64,000 nucleotides of DNA, from positions 124,001 to 188,000 of the forward strand of contig NZ_QJRF01000060.1 of the NCBI RefSeq assembly GCF_013393345.1. Reading direction: 5' to 3'. Position 1 is the first letter of the stretch, and the number at the start of each line of letters is the position of its first letter. The position numbers and the translations under genes were made by a program. The notes below the pieces were generated by a model. That model saw nothing but the letters and a program-made list of their open reading frames with translations. It was not told where the DNA came from and did not search any database. Below are positions 34,223 to 64,000 of this stretch, piece after piece. Source of the stretch: Pseudomonas taiwanensis. GTDB lineage: Bacteria; Pseudomonadota; Gammaproteobacteria; Pseudomonadales; Pseudomonadaceae.

Positions 34223-34299
34223 CGGAGCGTAGCGCAGCTTGGTAGCGCGTCTCGTTCGGGACGAGAAGGTCGCTGGTTCGAATCCAGTCGCTCCGACCA
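34223..34299 (+). tRNA. tRNA-Pro (anticodon CGG)
   Basis: 77 bases with encoded CCA. Acceptor stem CGGAGCG/CGCTCCG, anticodon stem TCTCG/CGAGA around the loop TTCGGGA (anticodon CGG), and T arm GGTTCGAATCC. It reads CCG proline codons. It has its own promoter and terminator. No integration scar is visible at its 3' end. Confidence 0.97.
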
Positions 34300-50963: not shown

Positions 50964-53918
50964 ATGCCGCAAAAGTTCGCTGAGCGTCGCTTTCCGCTGC
51001 ACGTCCACATCAGTGCGCTCTTCACCCTGCTGCTGCTTATCACCGGCATCGTCCTCGGCCTGTTCAATTACCGGCAGACCAGCCAGATCATCCTGTCCAG
51101 CAGCGACGAGCTTTTCGGCCGCATCAGCGCGGAGGTGGAAACCGACCTGCAGCACACCTACCAGCCGATCCACCATCTGCTCAACCTGCTGGCCCTGAGC
51201 GACACCGACCAGAACCTGGACAGTGCCGCTCGCGTGGACGCCTTGCTCAAACCCCTGACCCAGGCACTGAAGGACAACCCCAAGCTGGCATCGCTGTATC
51301 TCGGTTATGACGACGGCGACTTCTTCATGGTCCGACACCTGCGCAGCGAGGCGCTGAAGAAGGCATTCAAGGCACCGGCGACCGCGGCCTACCAGGTGTG
51401 GAGCATCGAGCGAGACAACCAGTCCTCGGCGCGATCGATGACCTTCTTCGTCGACGACCAACTCAACCAGATCGCCAACCGCGAGGAGCCCAACGAGCGC
51501 TACGATCCGCGCGGCAGGCCCTGGTACTACCGCGCCCTGGAGCAGGATGGTGCGATCACCACGACGCCCTATGTGTTCTTCTCCAGTGGCGCCGTCGGTA
51601 CGACATTGGCCCGTCCCAGTGGCGGTGATGCGGTGATAGGTGCCGACCTGACCCTGGAAGACCTGTCCGCCACCCTGGCCAGCCATCGCGTCACTCCATC
51701 CACCGAGGTGGTGCTGTACCAACCCGACGGCCGCGCCGTGGCCTATCCCGATACCAGCAAACTGGTGAAGCGACTCAACGGCGCTCCCGAACTGGGTGAG
51801 GTGAAGGACTTCAGTCCCCCGCTCGCGGCACTGATCGGACTCGCGGGACAGGATGACCTGCGCACCAGCCTGGAGATCGACGACCGTCGCTGGGTCCTCG
51901 CCCGCCAGCACCTCAAGGAGGGAGGCCCGCAGGGCCTGCAGCTGGCGATCCTCTCTCCGGAGGACGAGCTCCTGGATGATGCCTACCGCATCCGCTGGCA
52001 AGGCGCGATGCTGACCCTGGCCATTCTGTTGCTGTGCATCCCGCTCGGCGTCCTGCTCTCGCGCGTCGTGGTCAAACCCCTGCGAGCCCTGGTGACCCAG
52101 GCAGAAGCCATCCGCAGTTTCAACTTCAGCCTGCCTGCCATGGGCCGTTCGCCGATCCTGGAAGTCGACCAGCTGGCGGTGGCCACGGCACGAATGAAGG
52201 AAACCATTTCCAGCTTCCTCGAGATCGCCTCCAGCCTTTCGGCGGAAACCCGCTTCGACAATCTGCTGCGCCGCGTCCTCGACGAAACCATCGACATCAG
52301 CGAAGCCTCTGGGGGTCTGCTCTACCTGATCGACAACCAGAAGGGTCGCCTGGAACCCCACGGACTGTTCCTCAACGATCAGGAGCAGGACCTGGACGCC
52401 CACGGCATTCGCGGCTTCGGCCTGGAGAGTCCCGCCCTGCCCCACTGGCTCGACCTCCCGTCCCACGGCGGCCCCAGCCAGGTATGCTCCTTCGGCTATG
52501 ACCAGGCCGGGGCCTACCGCGACCTGCTGCAAACCCTGGAAAGCCCTCGCGTGCATCTAGTCAGCACCGGCCTGCACAACCGCCAGGGCGTCACCATCGG
52601 CGTACTGGTCCTGCTGCACCGCGACACCGGCAAGGAGTCGCGCCCCTCCATCCTCAAGCCCGAGCGCATTGCCTTCGTGGAAGCCATCTCCGGCGTCGCC
52701 GCACTGTGCATTGAAAGCCAGCGGCTGCTGGAGAAGCAGAAGCAACTGCTGGACGCCTTCATCCAGTTGATGGCCGGCGCCATCGACGCCAAGAGTCCCT
52801 ACACCGGTGGTCACTGCCAGCGAGTGCCGGAAATCACCCTGATGCTGGCCCGCGCTGCCGCCGCCAGCAACGAGACAGCATTCCGCGGGTTCAACCCCAC
52901 GGATGAGGAATGGGAGGCGCTGCATATTGCCGCCTGGCTGCATGACTGCGGAAAGGTCACGACCCCGGAATACGTCGTGGACAAGGCCACCAAGCTGGAA
53001 ACCCTGAACGATCGCATCCATGAGATTCGCACCCGCTTCGAGGTGCTCAAGCGCGATGCCTGGGTGCGCTACTGGCAAGCAATTGCCGAGGGTGCCGAGG
53101 AGGCCGGGCAAGCGCGGCTGCGCGACGAGGAGCTGGCCAGGCTGGACGATGACTTCGCGTTCATCGCCCACTGCAACCTGGGCGGCGAAGCCATGGCGGA
53201 TGCCGACCAGGCGCGCTTGAAGGACATTGCCGCACGCACCTGGACTCGCACCCTGGACAACCGTCTAGGCGTGTCCTGGGAAGAGGCCCAGCGCTTGGCC
53301 CGCACCCCGCCCCAGCCGCTCCCGGTGGAGGAAAATCTACTGGCCGATCGCCCCGACCACGTGGTCGAGCGCCCCGCCAGTGAACTGCTCCCTCCGGACA
53401 ATCCCTGGGGCTTCAAGCTGCAGGTGCCGGCACACAAATTCAATCGCGGAGAGCTGCACAACCTTTCCGTCGGCCGTGGAACATTGACCGAGGAAGAGCG
53501 TTACATCATCAACCACCACATCGTGCAGACTATCCTGATGCTCAATCACCTGCCCTTCCCGGCTCATCTTGCAAACGTCGCGGAGATCGCCGGCGGGCAC
53601 CACGAGAAGATGGATGGCACCGGCTATCCGAAGCGCCTGACTCGCGAAGAAATGAGCCTGCCCGCACGGATGATGGCCATCGCCGATATCTTCGAGGCGC
53701 TGACCGCCGTGGACCGCCCCTACAAGAAGGGCAAGACGCTTTCCGAAGCGCTGGGAATCATGACCGGCATGTGCCGCAACGCCCACATCGACCCTGACTT
53801 GTTCGGCCTGTTCATCCGCTCCGGGGTCTACCTGGATTACGCCCGGCGCTTCCTGAAGCCGGAGCAGATCGACCAGGTGGATGAGACGGCGGTGTTGGCG
53901 AAAGCGGGGTTGGCTTGA
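50964..53918 (+). CDS. dCACHE-HAMP-GAF-HD-GYP signalling protein
   Basis: 984 residues. Membrane helix (about 15-34), periplasmic dCACHE domain (about 40-340; WSIERDNQ, YDPRGRPWYYRALE), second helix (about 352-374), HAMP, GAF (about 430-590) and a C-terminal HD-GYP domain. The HD pair is His660-Asp661 (LHDCGK) and the GYP motif is HHEKMDGTGYP from His879. About 219 residues separate them, against roughly 60 in standard HD-GYP proteins, so an insert of about 150 residues is present. Canonical members hydrolyse c-di-GMP. It is not at this site in PAO1. Confidence 0.87.
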   Translation: MPQKFAERRFPLHVHISALFTLLLLITGIVLGLFNYRQTSQIILSSSDELFGRISAEVETDLQHTYQPIHHLLNLLALSDTDQNLDSAARVDALLKPLTQALKDNPKLASLYLGYDDGDFFMVRHLRSEALKKAFKAPATAAYQVWSIERDNQSSARSMTFFVDDQLNQIANREEPNERYDPRGRPWYYRALEQDGAITTTPYVFFSSGAVGTTLARPSGGDAVIGADLTLEDLSATLASHRVTPSTEVVLYQPDGRAVAYPDTSKLVKRLNGAPELGEVKDFSPPLAALIGLAGQDDLRTSLEIDDRRWVLARQHLKEGGPQGLQLAILSPEDELLDDAYRIRWQGAMLTLAILLLCIPLGVLLSRVVVKPLRALVTQAEAIRSFNFSLPAMGRSPILEVDQLAVATARMKETISSFLEIASSLSAETRFDNLLRRVLDETIDISEASGGLLYLIDNQKGRLEPHGLFLNDQEQDLDAHGIRGFGLESPALPHWLDLPSHGGPSQVCSFGYDQAGAYRDLLQTLESPRVHLVSTGLHNRQGVTIGVLVLLHRDTGKESRPSILKPERIAFVEAISGVAALCIESQRLLEKQKQLLDAFIQLMAGAIDAKSPYTGGHCQRVPEITLMLARAAAASNETAFRGFNPTDEEWEALHIAAWLHDCGKVTTPEYVVDKATKLETLNDRIHEIRTRFEVLKRDAWVRYWQAIAEGAEEAGQARLRDEELARLDDDFAFIAHCNLGGEAMADADQARLKDIAARTWTRTLDNRLGVSWEEAQRLARTPPQPLPVEENLLADRPDHVVERPASELLPPDNPWGFKLQVPAHKFNRGELHNLSVGRGTLTEEERYIINHHIVQTILMLNHLPFPAHLANVAEIAGGHHEKMDGTGYPKRLTREEMSLPARMMAIADIFEALTAVDRPYKKGKTLSEALGIMTGMCRNAHIDPDLFGLFIRSGVYLDYARRFLKPEQIDQVDETAVLAKAGLA

Positions 53919-54096: not shown

Positions 54097-54382
54097 TCAG
54101 GCGTTGACGGAATTTTCCGGGTACCACACGTCGATCAGCGGGCTGACGGTGGAGCCGGCCAGTTCGGCGTGGCCCTTCTTCAGCCAGGCTTCGACCAGGT
54201 CACGCTGCTCAGCGGTAACCGAACCACGCTTGCCAAGGCAAACGAAACCGTAGTCCTCGGAACCGATGAAGCCCAGGCCATTGCCTTCGACCGCTTCGTC
54301 GATGAAACGCTCGAAGAACGCCGAAACCGCTTCCAGATCCAGGCCCTCCTTGTAGTTGAAGGTGAGTTCGAAACCCAGTTCC
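54097..54382 (-). pseudogene. yggL: yggL 3' fragment, 5' end lost to island insertion
   Basis: Encodes the last 95 or so residues of YggL, the DUF469 ribosome-associated protein: ELGFELTFNYKEGLDLEAV, then GSEDYGFVCLGKRGSVTAEQRDLVEAWLKKG and LIDVWYPEN. The normal basic N-terminus (about 19 residues, rich in Arg/Lys, ending VDEFQ in relatives as I remember them) is missing. Homology stops at the Gln codon before ELGFEL, giving a break at about 54,383. The frame continues into foreign DNA to a TTG at 54402, so a chimeric protein of 101 residues is conceivable. PAO1 has intact PA3046 at this place. Confidence 0.82.
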
Positions 54383-54387
54383 GCGAT

Positions 54388-54416
54388 TTGACTATTTAGC
54401 AACCTTTGTCATTATT
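54388..54416 (+). promoter_or_regulatory. Possible promoter of the recombinase operon
   Basis: TTGACT (54388-54393) at the island edge and CATTAT (54410-54415) or ATTATT one base later, spacing 16-17. The ATG of the first recombinase gene follows at 54434. Confidence 0.4.
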
Positions 54417-54433
54417 TTTTCAACGCCCCTGGA

Positions 54434-56779
54434 ATGGGCCATTCAGACCGCCACGGCAACTCAATAAAAATGACAATTATCAAAGACACCCGGGCCATCC
54501 GCTCTCATCCTCTCGCTGCAATCGACCCAGAAGTGGCGAATCTTATTAACCATGGGGCTTCGCTCCACCAACGATCCTTCGGCACGAGTCACCACAGCAT
54601 CAGTGTTCCCCTGCAGCTGTTGGAGGCCTACTGCGACATTGCCGGCCTGCGAATCACCATGGAAACGCTCAGAAGCTCAGCCATTGAGGCAATCATGCAA
54701 GGGTTCTGCGCCGCGATGGCAGGCAATGCTCTATTGGAGCAATCGGGACCACGGAACGTCGGAATTTGCCGTCGTCTCTACCAGTCGCTCACCTCGGCAC
54801 GAGCGCGAGTTTCTGGCGCTCACGCTTTAGCTTGGGACATCTCCCTGTTCAAACCAGACCCAGCCGTGTGCGCGAGGATTGCTTCGACTAGTGATGACAA
54901 ACGTTGGTACTGGAAGGGCTGGGCAATCCAAAGCCCGCACAAACGTGGCGTGTACCTGCGGCTCGGCCAGCTCGTAGTCCCTTATGGAAGGAAATTTGTA
55001 GAGGCCATCTTCGCAGAGGTTGAAAAAGACTTCCGTGGCCGACCTGCCTCATTTCACAACGAATGGAATGACATGTTCGACTACCTCGGCGAGCACCAAA
55101 CCAGGTGGCCACGGAGGACCTTTAATACCGAAGAAGGCGTGAAAAGCTTCATGCAAGCCTTCACGATTGCTCACTTCACCAAGGCAGAGAAGGCCCAGAA
55201 GGACGCAAAATCACAAATCAAAAGCTGGAACACGTTTGTAAGCACGGTTGAGGTATGCCTATGCAAAACAGGGGTATGGGCAAACCTCTCGAAGCCTATC
55301 AAGAAGCCACCATCGTCAACCAAACGTGGATCTGAAACCAAACTAAAAGAGTGCGAAGACGGGCTGCTTGTCCAAGAGAAACTACTTACGAGCATTCCCC
55401 TTCACGTAACCGACTCTGAAGCCGTTGAGGTCCTCTTCTTCCACATTAAGAACGACCTAGCCACGGTTCGTGGCTGGGCAGCCCATCAGGCTGCAGACCT
55501 TAAATCCCGACAAGCTCGTCGTGTCCTGCTAGCTCAGAAAGGCAATCCGATTATAGAGTGCAAAGGTTCAAGTACCGCGAAAAAATATACGCTGGCCGAC
55601 GTCTGCGCGACACTGGAGGCCACCAGTTCCGAAGTGCCACCTGCGTTCCTCTGCAAAGTCCATTATTGGGTCACTGGCGAAAACTGCAGTGGCTCAGAAC
55701 TTGCCAACTATTACGGATACCCCGTGACAGGAAGCCTGTTCCCGCTTCAGTGCTTATTGGTGCTTGAGCATCCTGAAATCACGACCGAATTTCTACGGAG
55801 TTTCGAGCTTTATAATGAGCAAGGTCAATTGACGGGATTTGACGAAGAGAAGCGTTTACTCACTGGATACAAAAACCGCAAAAGATCAGATATGCGGGAG
55901 CAGGTAATCAAACTCAATGACATTTCTTTCCAAACAGTTAAGGACATCATCGAAATAACTAGCGTATGCCGGAGAAAGCTTCGTGCCCAAGGAGATGACA
56001 GCTATCGCTACCTATTTATCACGTCAGGCACAGCCTTTGATCGAGTTCGGCGGGCCAATGTAACGTACTGGAACAAGCATAAATTTCTTGGAAATCCTAA
56101 GTTGCGCGAACAACTAATCGCACAATTTAGTCCCCACAGCGACCTGCCAGCAGACGAGTTGATCGAGTTCATCAAACGGGTGCGACTGACCAAGATACGG
56201 ACATCTAGGGCAGTTGAAATATTTATTCAGACCAAAAGTAGCGAGGCCATGTCTAAGGCCCTCGGCCATGAGCGTTACTATCCAGATCTTCTCAGCCACT
56301 ACCTTCCGGATGCGTTACTAGCATTTATCAAAGCTCGGTGGATCCGAATCTTTCAGAAAGCTCTTGTTTGTGAAGCGATGAAAGATAGCCCGAACCTCCT
56401 TCGGGCGACGCAATTCAATACCATGAATGAGTTAGATGACTTTCTGGCCAACCACCGAATCAAAGAGATTCCGTCCCAGGCCTCCGACCCTGAACGCACA
56501 GAACAATGGGAAAATACCGAGACCAGTGAGGCTGTACTCTCTATCGGCGTGCCGTTCCTGGCTTCTCTGCTCTCACTCGAAGTGGCAGTCACAGCCTCCA
56601 CCGACCGGGCCCGCGTATGCGGAAAAGCAGAATACTGGGCGTCGTTTGCAGACAAAATCAAGACAGAAATCAAAAAAGGATCTAACCGTCTACTGAAAAA
56701 ACACCTGAATGCTGCATTGAAGCTGATCGACGCAAAAAAAATGGAGAAATTGATCTATGTCCCTGCTCACTGGGCGTGA
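54434..56779 (+). CDS. Large degenerate tyrosine recombinase-like protein
   Basis: 781 residues; start at ATG 54434, with a second ATG at 54470 equally possible since neither has a good ribosome site. The first 450 residues match nothing I recognise. The C-terminal third looks like a tyrosine recombinase fold: KIRTSRAVEIFI with Arg589, ALGHERYY with His612, and SHYLP with Tyr623. The His of H-x-x-R is replaced by Thr586, and I cannot find a convincing first Arg, so it may be a non-catalytic partner. It overlaps the next gene by 23 bases. Large partners of this kind accompany recombinases in trio-type islands (for example the GMT islands of gammaproteobacteria); exact family not established. 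Confidence 0.72.
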   Translation: MGHSDRHGNSIKMTIIKDTRAIRSHPLAAIDPEVANLINHGASLHQRSFGTSHHSISVPLQLLEAYCDIAGLRITMETLRSSAIEAIMQGFCAAMAGNALLEQSGPRNVGICRRLYQSLTSARARVSGAHALAWDISLFKPDPAVCARIASTSDDKRWYWKGWAIQSPHKRGVYLRLGQLVVPYGRKFVEAIFAEVEKDFRGRPASFHNEWNDMFDYLGEHQTRWPRRTFNTEEGVKSFMQAFTIAHFTKAEKAQKDAKSQIKSWNTFVSTVEVCLCKTGVWANLSKPIKKPPSSTKRGSETKLKECEDGLLVQEKLLTSIPLHVTDSEAVEVLFFHIKNDLATVRGWAAHQAADLKSRQARRVLLAQKGNPIIECKGSSTAKKYTLADVCATLEATSSEVPPAFLCKVHYWVTGENCSGSELANYYGYPVTGSLFPLQCLLVLEHPEITTEFLRSFELYNEQGQLTGFDEEKRLLTGYKNRKRSDMREQVIKLNDISFQTVKDIIEITSVCRRKLRAQGDDSYRYLFITSGTAFDRVRRANVTYWNKHKFLGNPKLREQLIAQFSPHSDLPADELIEFIKRVRLTKIRTSRAVEIFIQTKSSEAMSKALGHERYYPDLLSHYLPDALLAFIKARWIRIFQKALVCEAMKDSPNLLRATQFNTMNELDDFLANHRIKEIPSQASDPERTEQWENTETSEAVLSIGVPFLASLLSLEVAVTASTDRARVCGKAEYWASFADKIKTEIKKGSNRLLKKHLNAALKLIDAKKMEKLIYVPAHWA

Positions 56780-58835
56780 ATCTAGCACGGGGTATGAATT
56801 CCTCGATGAGTTTGGGGTAACAGAACTATCGCCTCATACGTCAGCACCTTGGCTGCTCAGTGACTTCGATGAGACTCTTTGGTCAATTTATATTAACAAA
56901 AAGAAATTATACGAACTTGATTGGAGTGTACGTCTTGGGGATGGCAGCCTATTAACTGACGACAACAACGAGGTACTACTCCGGTCATTGAAGCACCTGC
57001 TCATCATTGGCACGACGGGAGTCAACGACGAGTTTGCCACACTCGCGCCAGCGTCCCTAAAAACGCGCCTTTCATTCATATTAAAAATCATTGACTATCT
57101 GTTAATCCATGCTCAAAGCCTTAGTCTTATCCAATTCGGCCTTGGCGCCTTGAACGCCGATGAATTGAAAGGAATTCTCAACCATTTGGCCTCCTCCCCA
57201 CGGGCTGAAGAGTCCGTTTATGCATGGCATGAACGCGCATCCGCTTTCTGTAATGCCCAACTGAGCAATATAATCTACAGCGAGGCCGAGGATTTTTTTG
57301 CTAAGTATCCAAGTATGCTGGAGGTTAACGATGATGAATGTGAAGATCTTAAACTCAATATCACCGTAGCTGAGATCCCGATGATTCGTGCGGCGCTCAT
57401 GAAAGCTAATTTGTACTACGGAACCCACTGCCAGGGCTTTAAGGTAAATACTAAATTACTTTCGGAAAGCGTCTATCCAGACACGATCTACGGGCGGCAG
57501 ACGCCAAAATCGTCTCTCGAAGTACTAAGCTTCTATCCCAGCGAAACCAGGTATAAGCGCGAATATCCGAAAGTCAAAGTAACCACAGGTGAATCCGAAC
57601 ACCTTATAGACACCGCGTACTTTTACTATCGGTATGCACTCGTGAATAGCGCAGCGCTCAGCACATTGGGGTTGCCGGCTCCCTCAGATACTCACACCAT
57701 CATAGAGTACATTCCAAAACTCAACGAGGCTTCCCGGTACAGAAGTGTGCCTGCGAGCAACCTGCTAAAGCTCTTCCGTTGCAGTATAGATTTTCATGTC
57801 GAACATGGAAGGAAGGTCCTAAACGGCTTCATCAGAGTAGCAGCGCATTGCCACAGACAGAATCTCGCAATGACCCGCCTACCCGAGGCGGACTTTTTGA
57901 GGATTATCGGCCCGGAACTTGTCAGCTTCGGCGTTAAAAAGTTAGGCCTTTCGAGTTACCGTAGTAATAAATCTCCTCGAAAAGGTGGCGCAAAGCAATA
58001 CTTCCAGCACTTACGCGCCAACCATGGACTGCTTGAGTTGGTGAGTGTCTACCTGGGCAGTGTCCAGTTGGCCGTTGGGATGCTCATGGCGCGGCGCATT
58101 GACGAGTTGGTCACTCTAGACGCCTCGAGATGCTTGGACGAAAGCAAATCATGGCTTGTCTTCAACCTAGCGAAATCCACCCACAAAGCCTTGGGGATTC
58201 GGCAGCGTGAGTCTCGGCCTATCGATGCCATTGCCGTCGAAATGATTGAGGAACTGCGCCGCTTTCAAATGATACTTAAACGCCTTGGAGTTATAAGCGA
58301 CCTGACCAACTTGTTCGCGACTCCATGGTTGCGGGGACTCAAAGGACTGCAGGACTGCACACTGCACCTGTACCATCGCAATCTGGACTTGGCCTGTGAC
58401 TACTTCGAAAGCGATATTAACGCTGCTGGGGAGCGCTACTACGTACGCCAACACCAACTACGCCGCTTTTTCGCCATCATGTTCTTCTACACGAATAGCT
58501 TCGGCGAGTTGGATACCCTTCGCTGGATGCTTGGCCACCGCGACATCGAGCACGTTTGGCACTACCTGACTGAATGTCTGGAGCCCAAAGATATCAGGGG
58601 AGCGGGCGCCCGCTATTTCGCTGAACTTGCTAAACAGGAGCGGTTGGAAAACTATCAAAATTTGCAAGATTTGCTGTTTGCGGAATTCGGCACCTCTAAA
58701 TTTTCATTGGTAGACGAGCAGAAAATCGAAGATTACCTTTCGGCGATGCTTGAAGAAGGTAAAGTCCGGATTGAGCCGCAATTCTTCAACGATGAAAACG
58801 GCAAATCCATGAAAGTCCTATTTATTGTCAGCTAA
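56757..58835 (+). CDS. Tyrosine recombinase A of the island operon
   Basis: 692 residues, long for the family. ATG at 56757 with GGAG upstream, inside the end of the preceding gene. The C-terminal catalytic domain is complete: Arg447 (ARRIDEL), His566-x-x-Arg569 (RQHQLRRFF), His594 (MLGHRDIEH) and Tyr603 (VWHYLTE). The N-terminal 400 residues, with an all-helical middle, are unlike core-binding domains I know. Likely cuts and rejoins DNA at the island ends. Codon use is clearly more A+T-rich than the core genes. It ends five bases before the preferred start of the next gene. Confidence 0.85.
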   Translation: MSLLTGRESSTGYEFLDEFGVTELSPHTSAPWLLSDFDETLWSIYINKKKLYELDWSVRLGDGSLLTDDNNEVLLRSLKHLLIIGTTGVNDEFATLAPASLKTRLSFILKIIDYLLIHAQSLSLIQFGLGALNADELKGILNHLASSPRAEESVYAWHERASAFCNAQLSNIIYSEAEDFFAKYPSMLEVNDDECEDLKLNITVAEIPMIRAALMKANLYYGTHCQGFKVNTKLLSESVYPDTIYGRQTPKSSLEVLSFYPSETRYKREYPKVKVTTGESEHLIDTAYFYYRYALVNSAALSTLGLPAPSDTHTIIEYIPKLNEASRYRSVPASNLLKLFRCSIDFHVEHGRKVLNGFIRVAAHCHRQNLAMTRLPEADFLRIIGPELVSFGVKKLGLSSYRSNKSPRKGGAKQYFQHLRANHGLLELVSVYLGSVQLAVGMLMARRIDELVTLDASRCLDESKSWLVFNLAKSTHKALGIRQRESRPIDAIAVEMIEELRRFQMILKRLGVISDLTNLFATPWLRGLKGLQDCTLHLYHRNLDLACDYFESDINAAGERYYVRQHQLRRFFAIMFFYTNSFGELDTLRWMLGHRDIEHVWHYLTECLEPKDIRGAGARYFAELAKQERLENYQNLQDLLFAEFGTSKFSLVDEQKIEDYLSAMLEEGKVRIEPQFFNDENGKSMKVLFIVS

Positions 58836-58839
58836 AACA

Positions 58840-59445
58840 ATGAGCACATTGCCTAAGCGCGAGTTGATCGACCAATCTATTGGGAACATTTTTAAATTAC
58901 TTTCAGACATAGCGTACTCCCCAGGGAGCTATGTCGAAAATAAACAGGTTTTTAACGCACTGAAGAGCCAGGGAAATCTCTGCGCCCTCGATCTGGATTT
59001 CACCGTACAGGATGAACAGCTAGCAATTCGACCAATAAGCCTTAACACTCTCAAGAAAAGGCTCTCCGACAATTCCTCTGATATAAATTTTCAGCACCTG
59101 GATAAGCTTCGAGTGCAAGCACAGGCGGCAATACGAAAATTTAGCGAAGATTTGACCACCCCTAAGAAGAAGACCCGTTCTGCATTGGAGGATCAGATTG
59201 AGGAACTTAAGAAATCTGTCGCCACACTCCATGCAGTTAACATGGTTCTAATACAGGCACTGGAGGTTAACCGAAGGGATCTAATCACAATATCCGATAC
59301 CCCCAGCACAGGTCTTCGACAAAAAAGGATTAACGACGCGATCAATCGGATCATCAAGATTTTAAATTTGAATCCTGCACCTTTCGACGACATCACTATT
59401 CTGTCCATGAAAAAGCATTTGCAGTCGGTGCCCAATGAAAAATAG
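58840..59445 (+). CDS. Small coiled-coil protein of the recombinase operon
   Basis: 201 residues from the ATG at 58840 (MSTLPKRELIDQSIGNIFKLLSDIA); a TTG five codons upstream overlaps the previous gene. A central helix (QAQAAIRKFSEDLTTPKKKTRSALEDQIEELKKSVATLHAVNMVLIQALEV, residues about 90-145, quoted here only as a locator) is predicted by eye to be a coiled coil. In position and size it resembles the small third proteins of recombinase trios (GmtX-like, or TnpC of Tn554), which modulate recombination. Overlaps the next gene by 11 bases. Function is inference. Confidence 0.7.
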   Translation: MSTLPKRELIDQSIGNIFKLLSDIAYSPGSYVENKQVFNALKSQGNLCALDLDFTVQDEQLAIRPISLNTLKKRLSDNSSDINFQHLDKLRVQAQAAIRKFSEDLTTPKKKTRSALEDQIEELKKSVATLHAVNMVLIQALEVNRRDLITISDTPSTGLRQKRINDAINRIIKILNLNPAPFDDITILSMKKHLQSVPNEK

Positions 59446-60853
59446 AATCGTTGAGTATCCTGAATCAGCTCAACTTTTTAAACCTATTCCTATATTAAGA
59501 CTCTACGACTATTTAACGCAGGACACGCTCCGAACGCTTGACGGCAGCAACATGCCCTTCATGACATGGCCGGATGGATCACCATGCCTGCAAGCAAATG
59601 CCTACATGATTAGAATCCGTATGCAATCCGGCCGAGGCGGGAACGGCCCGTCAAGACTCGGAAGCAAAGGTGGTACATTTGGAGAGTACGCGGGTCAGAT
59701 TAGCCATTTGATCAGGTTCTGCTACTACAACAAACTCAATTTCATTTCTCTTTCGGACGACGATTTTTGTGAGTTCATCGATGGGCTCCGCAAGGAGACC
59801 AAACTCAACAACCCAAGCCAACTCAAGAGAAATGAGCGCACAATTTCCAGCATTGGCAAAAGGTGCTTGAACTTTCTATCACACGTTGGAGAAATGAACC
59901 AGCTGCATAATTTCGTTGGCATTGGTGGAACCATTGCTATAAAAATGGTCGATTCAACTGCCTATCGAAACGGAAAATCCTTCAAACGCTCCAGCGTCCA
60001 CCATAGATCTTTCAGGACGGCCAGCGCCAAAAAGACTCGCAAGCCTATTGGCGAGGCGAGCATTGAAAAGTTGCGCTATGCAGTTGATGAGATATCCAAC
60101 TCAGAATTTCTATGCAATCGTCGGCACTTGATGATTTCCTTGTTTGAGGAACTTGGTGCGCGACGAGGCGAAATTCAGCCTATTACCGTTGCCCAGGTAT
60201 TAGCCGCCAGCAAGAAAAAAAAACACATAATTACCATCACCACTTTAAAGCGAGGAGAGACTGGCCTGACGCGCGAGTTAGAGCTGAGCCCTCCCCTGAT
60301 TGAGGATCTCTTGACATATATTCGCGGCGATCGCCGCGAAATCATGAAACGATTTAAGGGCATTCCAGATCACGGCTTCCTGTTTGTTACCGAGCGCGGC
60401 GGACGCCCTTTAGGGGCAGACACGCTGACGACCGAATTTTCAATAATCCGACGCGCAGCTGGCATTGAGGAACAAGCTTGTGCACACCTCTTTAGACACG
60501 CCTTTTGTACCAACATTGTCGCCAACCTCATTGCTGAAACACAGGCGCTAAGCACCGACTCATTCAGACAAACGCTGATGACCAATAAGATGCTGGCCGA
60601 GCGAGCGATGTCCATGAGCGGCCATGCAACGCTAGAAAGCTTGCTTGACTATGTAGACGCCGCTTTCAGGGTCAAATCCAAATTCGAGCAACTCATCCAC
60701 AACGTCGAAATCGCCCGACGTTATGAAGTCTACGAGCGCCGAAGAAAACGCCTTCTTCAGGATTTCAAGGCCGGCAAAATCAGCAAAGAAAAATACATCG
60801 AGCGCGAGGAGTCCCTCACAGCGGCAATGGATAGTGACCTTAAGACTGTGTAA
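59435..60853 (+). CDS. Tyrosine recombinase B of the island operon
   Basis: 472 residues, ATG at 59435. Catalytic set complete: Arg243 (GARRGEI), His351-x-x-Arg354 (AHLFRHAF), His397 (MSGHATLES) and Tyr406 (LLDYVDAA). A basic, Lys/Arg-rich tail follows (RRYEVYERRRKRLLQDFKAGK). The N-terminal half holds a core-binding-like segment (SRLGSKGGTFGEYAGQISHLIRFC, NNPSQLKRNERTISSIGKRCLNFL). It is the last gene of the overlapping operon. With recombinase A this makes two presumably active enzymes in one element. Confidence 0.87.
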   Translation: MKNRIVEYPESAQLFKPIPILRLYDYLTQDTLRTLDGSNMPFMTWPDGSPCLQANAYMIRIRMQSGRGGNGPSRLGSKGGTFGEYAGQISHLIRFCYYNKLNFISLSDDDFCEFIDGLRKETKLNNPSQLKRNERTISSIGKRCLNFLSHVGEMNQLHNFVGIGGTIAIKMVDSTAYRNGKSFKRSSVHHRSFRTASAKKTRKPIGEASIEKLRYAVDEISNSEFLCNRRHLMISLFEELGARRGEIQPITVAQVLAASKKKKHIITITTLKRGETGLTRELELSPPLIEDLLTYIRGDRREIMKRFKGIPDHGFLFVTERGGRPLGADTLTTEFSIIRRAAGIEEQACAHLFRHAFCTNIVANLIAETQALSTDSFRQTLMTNKMLAERAMSMSGHATLESLLDYVDAAFRVKSKFEQLIHNVEIARRYEVYERRRKRLLQDFKAGKISKEKYIEREESLTAAMDSDLKTV

Positions 60854-60883
60854 GGCCCTCTCAACGCGCCGTCAAACTGATGG

Positions 60884-61189
60884 CCAATTCAGCCTGGCAA
60901 TCCCACGCAGAATGCCTTCATCGAGTCTTTCAACGGCGAGTACCAGGATGAATGCCTCAACGAGCCACGATTCTGTTCGCTGGCAAAATCCAGAATTCGC
61001 ACCGCGGCGTAGCGACGGGATTACAACGAACACCGACCGCACCGCACGATTGGCGATCTCACTCCGGAGGAATTTGCTGCGGAATGGCGAGCCAGCCAAG
61101 AGAAGATAAAGTCACTGCTTGCCGGAAAGGTGGAAGAGCTTCCACAAGAAAGTCAGCCTTGGGCTTTCTTGAATTCCCGTAACGATTAG
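60884..61189 (+). pseudogene. IS3-family transposase OrfB, C-terminal remnant
   Basis: In one frame the DNA encodes PIQPGNPTQNAFIESFNGEY, DECLNEPRF, RRDYNEHRPHRTIGDLTPEEFAAEW: the DDE/catalytic-Glu end of IS3-group transposases, closest to the IS407/IS51 type. A TAG at 61010-61012 replaces the Trp codon expected before RRDYN, and no start or OrfA is present, so it is dead. It begins 30 bases after recombinase B, with no inverted repeat seen at either side. Confidence 0.85.
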
Positions 61190-61416
61190 TTGGCCTGCAG
61201 TTCTGTCACCTGAGGCAGAAGAGTGGCTGGATCGCACGCCAGCACGCTGGCGATACGGTATAGCTTCTCGACGGTGATATTCACTTCACCACGCTCGATG
61301 CGTCCCATATAGCTGCGGTCAATGCTGCAGGCCAGTGCCAATGCGTCCTGGGAAATCCGGCAGGACTTTCTCTGCGTCCGAATGCGTGTCCCCAACGCTT
61401 TCGCCAACTGATCCAT
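61186..61416 (-). CDS. XRE-family helix-turn-helix regulator
   Basis: 76 residues from the ATG at 61416 (MDQLAKALGTRIRTQRKS); the frame is open 17 codons further. A single lambda-Cro type helix-turn-helix covers most of it (ISQDALALACSIDRSYMGRIERGEVNITVEKLYRIASVL). It is divergent from the winged-helix/helicase pair and probably controls it, a layout common for defence and toxin modules. Overlaps the IS remnant end by four bases. Confidence 0.85.
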   Translation of the reverse strand: MDQLAKALGTRIRTQRKSCRISQDALALACSIDRSYMGRIERGEVNITVEKLYRIASVLACDPATLLPQVTELQAN

Positions 61417-61453
61417 GACCGCCTCAACTCCACTTGAGGCGGCACTATCCTGC

Positions 61454-61494
61454 GTTTGCCGACGCACAAACCACGGACTATAATCCGCATTTTT
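61454..61494 (+). promoter_or_regulatory. Divergent control region of XRE gene and helicase pair
   Basis: A perfect -10 TATAAT (61489-61494) points towards the cargo pair but lacks a good -35. Upstream, GTTTG-N8-CAAAC (61454-61471) is a perfect inverted repeat where the -35 should be, a candidate XRE operator. On the minus strand TTTGTG-N17-TAGTGC could serve the regulator. Confidence 0.5.
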
Positions 61495-61519
61495 ACGCTA
61501 CGACCCCGTGGGTGCCCGC

Positions 61520-62089
61520 ATGAGATCTGCCTCGTTCATCTTCGATAGGCGGCTGTATCAGCTGCTTCAGGAGGAAGGGCGCACGCAATTCACGACTCGT
61601 GACCTGCGGGATGCCTATGCCAAGCGCTTGGAGGGCATGACCTTTCGTCTCGGCAATGTGCGCCGATATGTGTATAAGCAGATCCGCCGAATGCTGCGGG
61701 TAGGCTGGCTCGTGCTTGACGAAGAGCGCCGCACGCGCGGGCAGGTCTACCACCTGCAACCAATCCCGGCACATTTGCAACTCGAGCTAGTAGACAACGG
61801 GTTCGAGAATAGCCTCAGCGAACCAAGGCAGGCGCCGCCAGTGCTTGAGCCGCCTAGACCTTCATTCGACGCGGAGCAGCACCTGGAAACGCTCCTCAAG
61901 GAGATCCGGCTCGACTTCCTGTCCGCCATGGGCGAGGCGGAGCGATTCAAGCAGTTACTTGATGACATGCCGGATCTGCGGGAAAAGGTCGAAGGCGAGT
62001 ATTTGGAAGCCATGGACCGCAGCTCGCGCCTCTTGGGACACCTCCGTGCCGTCGAGAAGACGCTCAAGACACTTACTACTTCGCGATGA
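61520..62089 (+). CDS. Winged-helix-like partner of the helicase
   Basis: 189 residues from the ATG at 61520 (a GTG lies four codons upstream). The first 80 residues look like a winged helix (FIFDRRLYQLLQEEGRTQF, RDLRDAYAKRLEG, VRRYVYKQIRRMLRVGWLVLDEE, then a beta wing RTRGQVYHLQP). A Pro-rich linker leads to a helical C-terminus (LETLLKEIRLDFLSAMGEAERFKQLLDDMPDLREKVEGEYLEAM) that may dimerise. The stop overlaps the helicase start (ATGA), so both are made together. I do not recognise the family. Confidence 0.72.
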   Translation: MRSASFIFDRRLYQLLQEEGRTQFTTRDLRDAYAKRLEGMTFRLGNVRRYVYKQIRRMLRVGWLVLDEERRTRGQVYHLQPIPAHLQLELVDNGFENSLSEPRQAPPVLEPPRPSFDAEQHLETLLKEIRLDFLSAMGEAERFKQLLDDMPDLREKVEGEYLEAMDRSSRLLGHLRAVEKTLKTLTTSR

Positions 62090-63477
62090 CGTCATCCCTG
62101 AGAAATTGGCAGCGTCGCTGTATTGAAACGGCGCTCGAGCACTTCATTTCCACGCCGCATTTCTTCTGCCAGGCAACACCGGGCGCCGGCAAAACTCGCA
62201 TGGCAGCGGAGCTGGCCCGGCGCCTGCGGGAGCAAGGCTTGATCGATCTGGTGCTCTGCTTTGCTCCGTCGTGCCAGGTGGTGGACGGCTTTCGCTCGAC
62301 CTTTTCATCGGTGCTTGGCGGACGCTTGGACGGCTTGCTTGGCGCTTTGGGTGGCGCGTACACCTACCAAGCCATGGAGTACCGAGACGAGGCATTCTGG
62401 CGCCTCCTCGACGACTACCGCGTATTTGTCGTCTTCGACGAAATCCACCATTGCGCCGGTCATGATCCGCTCCTGAGCAACGCCTGGGGACAGCAGATCC
62501 TGCAACGGATCCAGGATCGTGCCGCTTTCACCCTGGCCCTTTCCGGCACTCCATGGCGCTCGGACGACCGTGCTATTGCCCTCGCGCGATACTCCTCTCC
62601 CGAGGGGCACCTGATCTGTGACTATCGCTATGGCTTGAAGGAGGCCATTGCGGACGGGGTGTGCCGTTCGCCTCGCATCGTCCTCCTCGACAACCAGAAG
62701 GTGAAGCTTACGGAAGAGTTGGGGGCCGAGAGCCTCGCCAGGCACTTTCCCAGCATTGTCAAGCTATTGGAGGAATCCCCCGTCACCTATGAAGACCTGC
62801 TTCGCCATGACGAGGTGATCGATCAACTGCTCGGCCTGGGATGCGAAAGGTTGGATGAGCTTCGCCGAATCAAGCCGGATGCTGCTGGCCTGGTGGTCGC
62901 CACCGATATCGAGCATGCCCATCAGATTGCCCAGACCCTAAAATCCAGGGGAGAAAGTTGCCGGGTCGTAACCAACCGAACCCCGGATGCCCAGCAGGTG
63001 ATCAATAACTTCAAGCACAGCGACTGCCGTTGGATCGTCGCCGTGGGAATGATCAGCGAAGGCACAGACATCCCCCGCTTGCAGGTGTGCTGCTACCTCA
63101 GCCGCATCCGAACCGAGCTGCACTACCGGCAAGTGTTGGGACGGGTGCTGCGGCGTATAGGCGAGCCCGATGACAAGGCCTGGCTATTCATGCTCGCGGA
63201 GCCCACGCTCCAGCGCTTTGCGGAGCGCATTGCAGATGATCTACCGGATGATCTGGCGGTGCTGAGTCAGGTTCATACGCCTACTTCTACACCCGGCATT
63301 ACGTCTGGCGGGCTGGCTACCGCTAACTATGTCGATGGCAGCAGTGGTACTGAGAGTGGGCAGGGTCTTGGGACAGGTTCGGTAGGCATCTCCTCGTTGG
63401 GTGATTTCGCCGCTGAGCCAAGCTATCAAATCAGCTTCTCGCAGCACTACCGGCAGCTGTTGGTGGCTTGCTTTTGA
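62086..63477 (+). CDS. SF2 DEAD/DEAH-box helicase, ResIII-like, without nuclease
   Basis: 463 residues. Walker A ATPGAGKT (residues 30-37), DEIH box (118-121), SGTPWR (153-158), EGTDIP (from 325) and QVLGRVLRR (from 349) form a full superfamily 2 motor of the type I/III restriction-subunit kind. After the helicase core a Gly/Ser/Thr-rich stretch (about 405-445) leads to a short tail. There is no nuclease or methylase domain. Such small ResIII helicases occur on islands beside XRE regulators. Its partner, target and role are unknown; a defence function is inference. Confidence 0.87.
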   Translation: MTSSLRNWQRRCIETALEHFISTPHFFCQATPGAGKTRMAAELARRLREQGLIDLVLCFAPSCQVVDGFRSTFSSVLGGRLDGLLGALGGAYTYQAMEYRDEAFWRLLDDYRVFVVFDEIHHCAGHDPLLSNAWGQQILQRIQDRAAFTLALSGTPWRSDDRAIALARYSSPEGHLICDYRYGLKEAIADGVCRSPRIVLLDNQKVKLTEELGAESLARHFPSIVKLLEESPVTYEDLLRHDEVIDQLLGLGCERLDELRRIKPDAAGLVVATDIEHAHQIAQTLKSRGESCRVVTNRTPDAQQVINNFKHSDCRWIVAVGMISEGTDIPRLQVCCYLSRIRTELHYRQVLGRVLRRIGEPDDKAWLFMLAEPTLQRFAERIADDLPDDLAVLSQVHTPTSTPGITSGGLATANYVDGSSGTESGQGLGTGSVGISSLGDFAAEPSYQISFSQHYRQLLVACF

Positions 63478-64000
63478 CGGCCGATTGGTAACGGAATCAA
63501 ATTAAACGCAGAGGCCATCGAGCTTGCCAAGGACCAGGTCAGTGAGATGCTCACCCATGAGAAGGCTGGACAGAATCGGGCCAGAAAGAGAAGAACTTCT
63601 TCGAAACTCGCGTCATCGAGTACTAGACCTACGGCGCACTGAGCTGGGATCAAAGCTATCTCGCGTAGTTTTTCAACAAACGCTGGAACGTTTTCACGAT
63701 TGTTGGAACGGATGCACCAAGCGGTGCACAGCCGCTGCCTGGGGAGGCAGCGGCGCTGGCCATCGAAGGGTGGCTTTAGCAACAGGGCAAGGCCATTAGC
63801 CCCAAAGGAACTGGGGTAGAAAGGAGTAATCGAAAGGGCCGGTGGGCAATGCTCACCGGCCCTTTTCCTTGGTAACGGGAAAGACCTTTAGCCGAAAAGC
63901 GGCCATTGAAACGGCTCGTTGTACCATCGTTGCGCTCAAAGCTCCGTAGAGGCTCAGCGCCCGAGATGTCGGAGCCAGAGAGTGCCCGTTTCTGACCGGT
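63478..64000. other. 523-bp region without a supported gene
   Basis: All six frames are broken by stops or carry only short frames without recognisable similarity. A frame with FFNKRWNVFTIVGTD near 63,670 could be a gene remnant, but I cannot name it. A strong hairpin lies near 63,850. The last 100 bases contain no yggL 5' sequence and no copy of the left island edge. Confidence 0.5.
63834..63866. terminator. Strong intrinsic terminator in the island
   Basis: GGGCCGGTGGGC and GCTCACCGGCCC form a nearly perfect stem of about 12 pairs over a three-base loop, preceded by AAA and followed by TTTT. It may end a leftward transcript from outside the window or a rightward one. Coordinates are accurate to a base or two. 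Confidence 0.8.

Follow-up and report, generated by a model that had tools for sequence, protein, structure and literature searches.

A putative site-specific integrative element of the Pseudomonadaceae that splits yggL or hrpB and carries a complete copy of the split gene

The window (the whole 64,000-nucleotide stretch analysed here, positions 124001-188000 of contig C53 in genome G000) was found to harbour one end of a genomic island inserted in yggL, which is very probably a site-specific integrative element of the SE, GInt and Tn554 kind, with a gene order of its own, a footprint of 6 bp and a strategy of splitting and replacing the target gene. Two tyrosine recombinases (g2 and g4) and two helper proteins (g1 and g3) would drive this element, which sits in yggL between codons 19 and 20 at a 6-bp core and carries a yggL copy that is proposed to assume the function of the split gene, whilst a change in the target site may prevent the element from entering the copy that it brings. 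If the carried copy does take over this function, the host could tolerate the insertion and would pay a price for losing the island. An earlier note on this DNA had claimed that an island with a tyrosine-recombinase operon lies in the 5' part of yggL, and the finding of both junctions and of intact orthologues bore this out.

A minus-strand open reading frame at 54097-54402 matched the PF04320 profile (YggL_50S_bp) from profile position 13 onward only (E 2.1e-22). Codons 20-113 and the stop codon of native yggL, as delimited by this match and by intact orthologues, occupy 54097-54380 on the minus strand, so that native sequence ends 3-4 bases away from the approximate position of 54,383 given in the earlier note; the frame itself extends through the junction into the element end, up to a TTG at 54402. 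Adjoining the native part is a foreign 6-bp footprint at 54381-54386, also present in G015, in which TCGCGG (gene strand) stands instead of the native core TCCAGG. It is followed by the operon-proximal terminus at 54387-54402, which was read at the junction and repeats the distal terminus (on contig C23) imperfectly and in inverted orientation; read by eye, the element ends are imperfect inverted repeats with a 6-bp spacer. The island fills the window from 54387 to 64000, continues to the end of C53 and then into C23 up to base 232031. The claimed rise in A+T content at the junction was also recovered, with GC falling from 0.60-0.64 on its left to 0.45-0.51 over 55-61 kb, and standing at 0.57-0.60 over 61-64 kb.

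The lost N-terminal codons, which were to be sought further on according to the earlier note, were located on C23. Native yggL is cut between codons 19 and 20, and codons 1-19 start at C23 base 232031, the far end of the island, where they lie next to dacB and read MATNRSRRLRKKLCVDEFQ before the other terminus. An intact site reads GAATTCCAGGAACTGG, the dacB side GAATTCCAGG then TTTTGCTAATTAGCAAAAAATAATC, and the window side (gene strand) GACAAAGGTTGCTAAATAGTCAAA, TCGCGG and AACTGG. We read the core TCCAGG as still native distally and as replaced by the foreign footprint next to the operon; where the core starts and stops is our own placement, and G142 fits if the terminus is one base shorter. 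The short direct repeat that had been expected at the junctions was absent, the six bases beside the two ends being different, because the foreign footprint sits at the operon end. Footprints at this end were TCGCGG in G000 and G015, GTAAGG in G005, CTAAAG in G142 and ACAAAG on the chromosome of G242.

Comparison with island-free relatives, another step proposed in the earlier note, supported the insertion. In G006 an intact yggL lies between dacB and the gene encoding the 984-aa protein that flanks the island in the window (50964-53918, plus strand, from the list of open reading frames), and yggL is likewise intact in the same gene context in G002, G007, G008 and G017; the neighbour names, such as dacB, are presumed here and follow the earlier note. 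A census of 18 genomes of the genus returned a single full-length yggL in 15, and a truncated copy with the same cut alongside a full copy in G000, G005 and G015, which are exactly the genomes harbouring a close form of the operon. Neither rearrangement alone nor a short yggL without an island, both named beforehand as evidence against the note's reading, was encountered among these 18 genomes. Local rearrangement as the only cause was rejected on the agreement of both yggL halves and the intact orthologues, and a fixed short yggL paralogue on the occurrence of the short form only together with the island in the 18 genomes. An island at a tRNA site was likewise rejected, as the insertion is not at a tRNA gene, the sole tRNA gene of the window being at 34223-34299. 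Across the full comparison, in which all genomes were Pseudomonadaceae, yggL was split in five genomes of three genera (genus codes g1, g14 and g15).

The operon begins approximately 83 bp inside the terminus. Its first gene, g1, is listed as an open reading frame from 54434 (781 aa), and alignment of relatives indicated a conserved MTII start at 54470, giving a 769-aa putative helper protein (54470-56779, plus strand, as are the next three genes) with no Pfam match and a few conserved Arg, His and Tyr residues. The g2 gene (56757-58835) encodes a large, 692-aa protein of tyrosine-recombinase type with a weak PHROG integrase match (E 0.013) and conserved R447, K473, H566, R569, H594 and Y603; g3 (58825-59445), taken from the list of open reading frames and found in relatives, a small protein of 206 aa; and g4 (59435-60853) a canonical tyrosine recombinase of 472 aa (PF00589, E 1.3e-8). 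In alignments A1, A2 and A3, comprising 12, 13 and 13 rows from among the relatives, g2 kept the full set of catalytic residues and g1 fewer of them. Profile comparison gave a weak match between g2 and g4 and no match of g1 to g2 or to g4, whilst PDB searches returned no match for the g1 profile, the g2 profile or g4, and a match at chance level only for g2 alone. The Gamma-Mobile-Trio and the gis-gene island family were rejected as candidates: no NCBIfam model reached the cut-off for g1-g4, and a literature search gave nothing bearing on the matter. The cargo starts with an HTH regulator at 61186-61467 on the minus strand (PF01381; conserved in G005), followed at 61508-63477 on the plus strand by a 193-aa protein and a helicase-like protein (ResIII and Helicase_C domain matches), conserved in G005 and G015.

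Matches to g2 were obtained in 39 of 398 family genomes, and searches recovered the complete order g1-g2-g3-g4 at 17 of 20 relative loci. The incomplete loci were L095, without a g4 match, L100, without a g3 match (a 167-aa frame lies there), and L101 of G015, with only the end of g1. A scan of genome contigs with g1 matched one locus. In G171, G179 and G197, which stand outside the counts, the g2 relative was split over two adjoining open frames (approximately 520 and 170 residues), and its position was the same in all three genomes.

The island of G000 measures approximately 204 kb, a size that depends on the tail-to-tail overlap by which C53 and C23 were joined, namely 1,060 bases, 100% identical in the part compared, within what by eye is a monooxygenase-like gene. 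The island spans 71.1 kb in G142, 27.9 kb in G242, and approximately 89 kb or more in G015, provided that contigs C76 and C53 are both part of it. In G142 and on both replicons of G242, the two ends and the carried yggL were read. When G000 and G015, which belong to two species, were compared, their flanks were 81-92% identical on the distal side (500-bp steps) and 72-90% on the proximal side (250-bp steps). At the distal junction the last 200 native bases matched at 177/200 and the first 401 element bases at 401/401; at the proximal junction the footprint and the first 120 element bases matched at 126/126. Further island steps compared were 100.0% identical, and identity over 73 kb, flank included, was 99.1%. 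In G015, g1 is broken, with approximately 1.9 kb gone and, in its place, 1.2 kb of sequence containing what by eye is an IS3-like transposase (between the end of L029 and the start of L101), hence this island may no longer move by itself.

Genome G242 harboured two copies of the element, 99.9% identical over 27.9 kb, one in chromosomal yggL and the other in a TerD-family gene on a replicon of 909,734 bp. Annotations of YggL, of TerD and, for the g2 relative, of an 'integrase' stand at matching places on CP136011.1, a plasmid of Pseudomonas sp. FeN3W; the annotated table of CP136011, which is incomplete, holds no terD homologue between the element's YggL and its g1 gene. The footprints of the two copies are reciprocal, in that the chromosomal ACAAAG recurs as the six bases of terD at its distal junction, and the plasmid TCCAGG is identical to the yggL core. 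This is to be read with the caution that both records start at an element junction, as is common for assemblies at repeats, and that a small tandem repeat is present on the terD side. We take the pair as a probable trace of successive transfers, out of a yggL into terD and from there into yggL. The cargo of the G242 element (L112, L083) includes a type I restriction-modification system and a YgjP/SprT-like metallopeptidase.

According to the earlier note the island had no repairing duplicate, a view overturned by the presence of a second full-length yggL in all five split genomes, which lies within the island in every case where the two ends could be located. That of G000 is at C23 232433-232777, outside the window. 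The carried gene lies approximately 0.4 kb from the distal terminus in G000, G005 and G015, 0.6 kb in G242 and 6 kb in G142. In a DNA tree from which codons 15-25 were left out, one group (SH-aLRT 99) contained four of the five carried genes, and the fifth, that of G142, was in the same fork (81), together with the yggL of other genera, the host genes being elsewhere in the tree. The dN/dS ratios among the carried copies were approximately 0.08-0.18, by which measure carried yggL is under purifying selection.

As a control on copy number, 127 of 148 family genomes matched yggL and 22 had more than one match, these being G000, G005, G015, G142, 16 genomes of genus g9, G069 and G119. The 16 g9 genomes each encode two full-length yggL genes, and a g2 match, a distant one, was found among them only in G130. 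Since these genomes have two copies, two yggL copies alone prove nothing, and the argument is one of position and foreign origin. In G069, yggL fragments (profile positions 1-32 and 65-102) lie approximately 1.5 kb apart on contig C1 (75782-77443), with a full-length yggL elsewhere, perhaps as a result of another insertion.

A parallel arrangement was found at the helicase gene hrpB, in distant relatives with a matching gene order. In 12 relatives with g2 identities of 34-41%, the C-terminal part of HrpB adjoins g1, and searches with TIGR01970 recovered from all 12 an HrpB of full or almost full length, a C-terminal part starting at position 120-125 or thereabouts and an N-terminal part of approximately 124-136 positions; two genomes without the operon had a single hrpB copy over the cut-off. 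The full hrpB lies between its two halves on one contig in 10 of the 12, and two contigs are involved in G345 and G116. A full hrpB and a C-terminal part were also found in G110 and G206, with an N-terminal part below the cut-off used, bringing the genomes with the element and both forms to 14 of 14, compared with one hrpB copy in 20 of 20 genomes lacking a g2 match. Three genomes with the operon at 39% g2 identity (G214, G230 and G143) are outside these counts. The carried hrpB of G088 is frame-shifted, its first 47 positions being in another frame. Distal junctions, read in 12/12, consist of GACGAATTCCACG or a variant and then the terminus. The DNA motif at the hrpB cut matches the yggL target, the two targets in G006 being GACGAATTCCAGGAAC (yggL) and GACGAATTCCACGAAC (hrpB). 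Next to the carried hrpB in G175 (C2 178557-179232) and G209 (C2 1031987-1032662), further degraded hrpB remnants were seen, one of them interrupted by a stop codon; they possibly derive from an older replacement copy. At loci L095 and L097 (G354 and G270) the same operon type lies next to a fragment of a gene that by eye encodes a cation antiporter, and a search with the fragment detected no second full copy in either genome.

The carried hrpB copies differ from the native genes at the cut itself. Immediately after the residues that we take to be the DExH motif, all 22 native sequences read DEFH-E-R and all 14 carried ones DE[FY]H-L-R, the Glu to Leu change occurring in 14/14 carried and 0/22 native copies, and Tyr at the motif in 11 of the 14. 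Among 262 gap-free columns invariant in the 22 native sequences, the cut column alone was replaced in all 14 carried copies, and five others in 5 to 12 of them; one native-variable column also had disjoint residues in the two sets (Cys or Met in carried copies). The 14 are not independent cases, since those of G151, G110 and G206 are identical and those of G209 and G175 nearly so. In a tree inferred without the motif the carried copies formed groups of five, three and six, requiring at least three changes, the bootstrap of this tree having not yet converged. These groups would represent either three captures or one capture with recombination that kept the motif, and could stem from one origin plus gene conversion. 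For yggL, TTG follows the Glu codon in 5/5 carried and 3/44 native copies. Because the yggL site differences are synonymous and also occur in some native genes such as L161, because three natives share the TTG and because the carried copy of G005 retains the core TCCAGG, copy protection is weakly supported for yggL, and the TTG pattern is compatible with site protection without arguing strongly for it. We infer from the hrpB comparison that an altered site would protect the replacement copy from the element.

A fuller reading, in which we place as much doubt as belief, is one of split and rescue: the islands would disable a conserved gene, bring a replacement with an attack-proof site and so become needed, the Glu to Leu change having arisen, or been kept via recombination, in the three carried-hrpB groups, with a switch between hrpB and yggL through their shared motif and plasmid terD as a possible shuttle station. 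Several other explanations were weighed against the same data. An ordinary GInt- or SE-like island with yggL as chance cargo unlinked to the target would be in keeping with the similar part lists and varied cargo of those families, and with the antiporter pair and its want of a second copy; it is nevertheless quite improbable, given that the carried gene is a homologue of the split gene in 5/5 yggL and 14/14 hrpB genomes, that the carried yggL is under purifying selection and that the hrpB copies are all altered at the cut. Hardly credible is the notion that the truncated yggL still works from a start that the element end provides, with the island merely tolerated. The frame is indeed open through the junction in all five truncated copies (97-103 residues), but these forms lack the conserved basic N-terminus, and a second, complete yggL is present in all five genomes.

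Descent from a diverged donor, with no selection for immunity, is an unlikely explanation of the target differences, albeit one with some substance. The carried yggL is a foreign homologue whose synonymous differences are found in native genes as well, and the states shared by carried hrpB copies (the Tyr in 11/14 and the Cys or Met column) would fit one old origin with recombination. Against this, the sole native-invariant hrpB column replaced in every carried copy is that of the cut residue, and the carried hrpB copies group with different native clades.

Integrative elements usually spare their host by using the ends of tRNA genes or by restoring the end of a target gene; the islands described here bring along an entire replacement gene, which in the hrpB group is altered at the one residue on the insertion point. 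Free-standing homing endonucleases of phages are linked to a resistant allele of their target and are similar in that a selfish enzyme gene lies beside a resistant copy of the target gene, but they rely on an endonuclease and gene conversion, in contrast to the recombinase island described here. The proposed design also resembles the rescue-plus-resistant-site arrangement of engineered gene drives. It offers a direct assay for self-immunity of recombinase elements and may explain why some genomes have an unexpected second copy of a housekeeping gene. Such islands could be sought by looking for a core gene whose two halves enclose a complete homologue.

In agreement with the earlier note, to which no yggL-specific element was known, a literature search combining yggL or DUF469 with island or integrase gave nothing relevant; subscription journals were mostly outside this search, and an earlier description is possible. 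For P. aeruginosa, hrpB is mentioned once as a place where islands integrate (PMC8373256), which differs from the present islands in that the portion of the source covered here describes no carried hrpB copy or altered site; the word hrpB is absent from the main text of two works cited there. The GInts, or ginABCD islands, occur in pseudomonads and other organisms at fixed protein-gene sites with cargo up to at least 70 kb, the targets named in the covered portion of the source being ssb, an ABC transporter gene and a reductase gene, and two P. aeruginosa GInts sit at a duplicated ribonucleotide reductase gene (PMC5385486). They resemble the present element in having three recombinase-type genes and a small gene, and in forming islands at fixed protein genes. 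As described, the GInts are set apart by the order ginA-ginB-ginC-ginD, in which the small gene is last, whereas here the small gene is third and the canonical integrase last; the words hrpB and yggL are absent from the main text of that paper (PMC5385486).

Another close correspondence, in parts and ends, is with the SEs (strand-biased circularizing integrative elements), reported in the covered portion of their description to have the core order intA-tfp-intB-srap, a 6-bp donor-site footprint at the operon-distal end and few targets (PMC10214605). Both have a core of four genes, which encode two tyrosine recombinases, one ordinary and one large, together with a small protein and a recombinase-like one. 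Both also end in imperfect inverted repeats with a 6-bp spacer, use few targets and bear a 6-bp donor-site footprint at one end, seen here in the reciprocal pair of G242. The present element departs from the SE order, its genes running g1-g2-small-integrase, its footprint is operon-proximal instead of operon-distal, and it carries a target gene, of which that part of the SE description has none (PMC10214605). Relatives of Tn554 are told apart by their three-gene set tnpA, tnpB and tnpC, against four genes here. One of them, the 9-kb Tn552-II of Staphylococcus, has tnpABC together with a target-gene-like gene, tgl, considered a possible rescue (PMC12486829). It thereby shares with the present element a homologue of the disrupted gene inside the element (here yggL 5/5 and hrpB 14/14, but not the antiporter pair), and both carry in the donor att sequence at one end; going by the covered portion of that source, tgl holds a copy of att, whereas the carried hrpB here has an altered site (PMC12486829).
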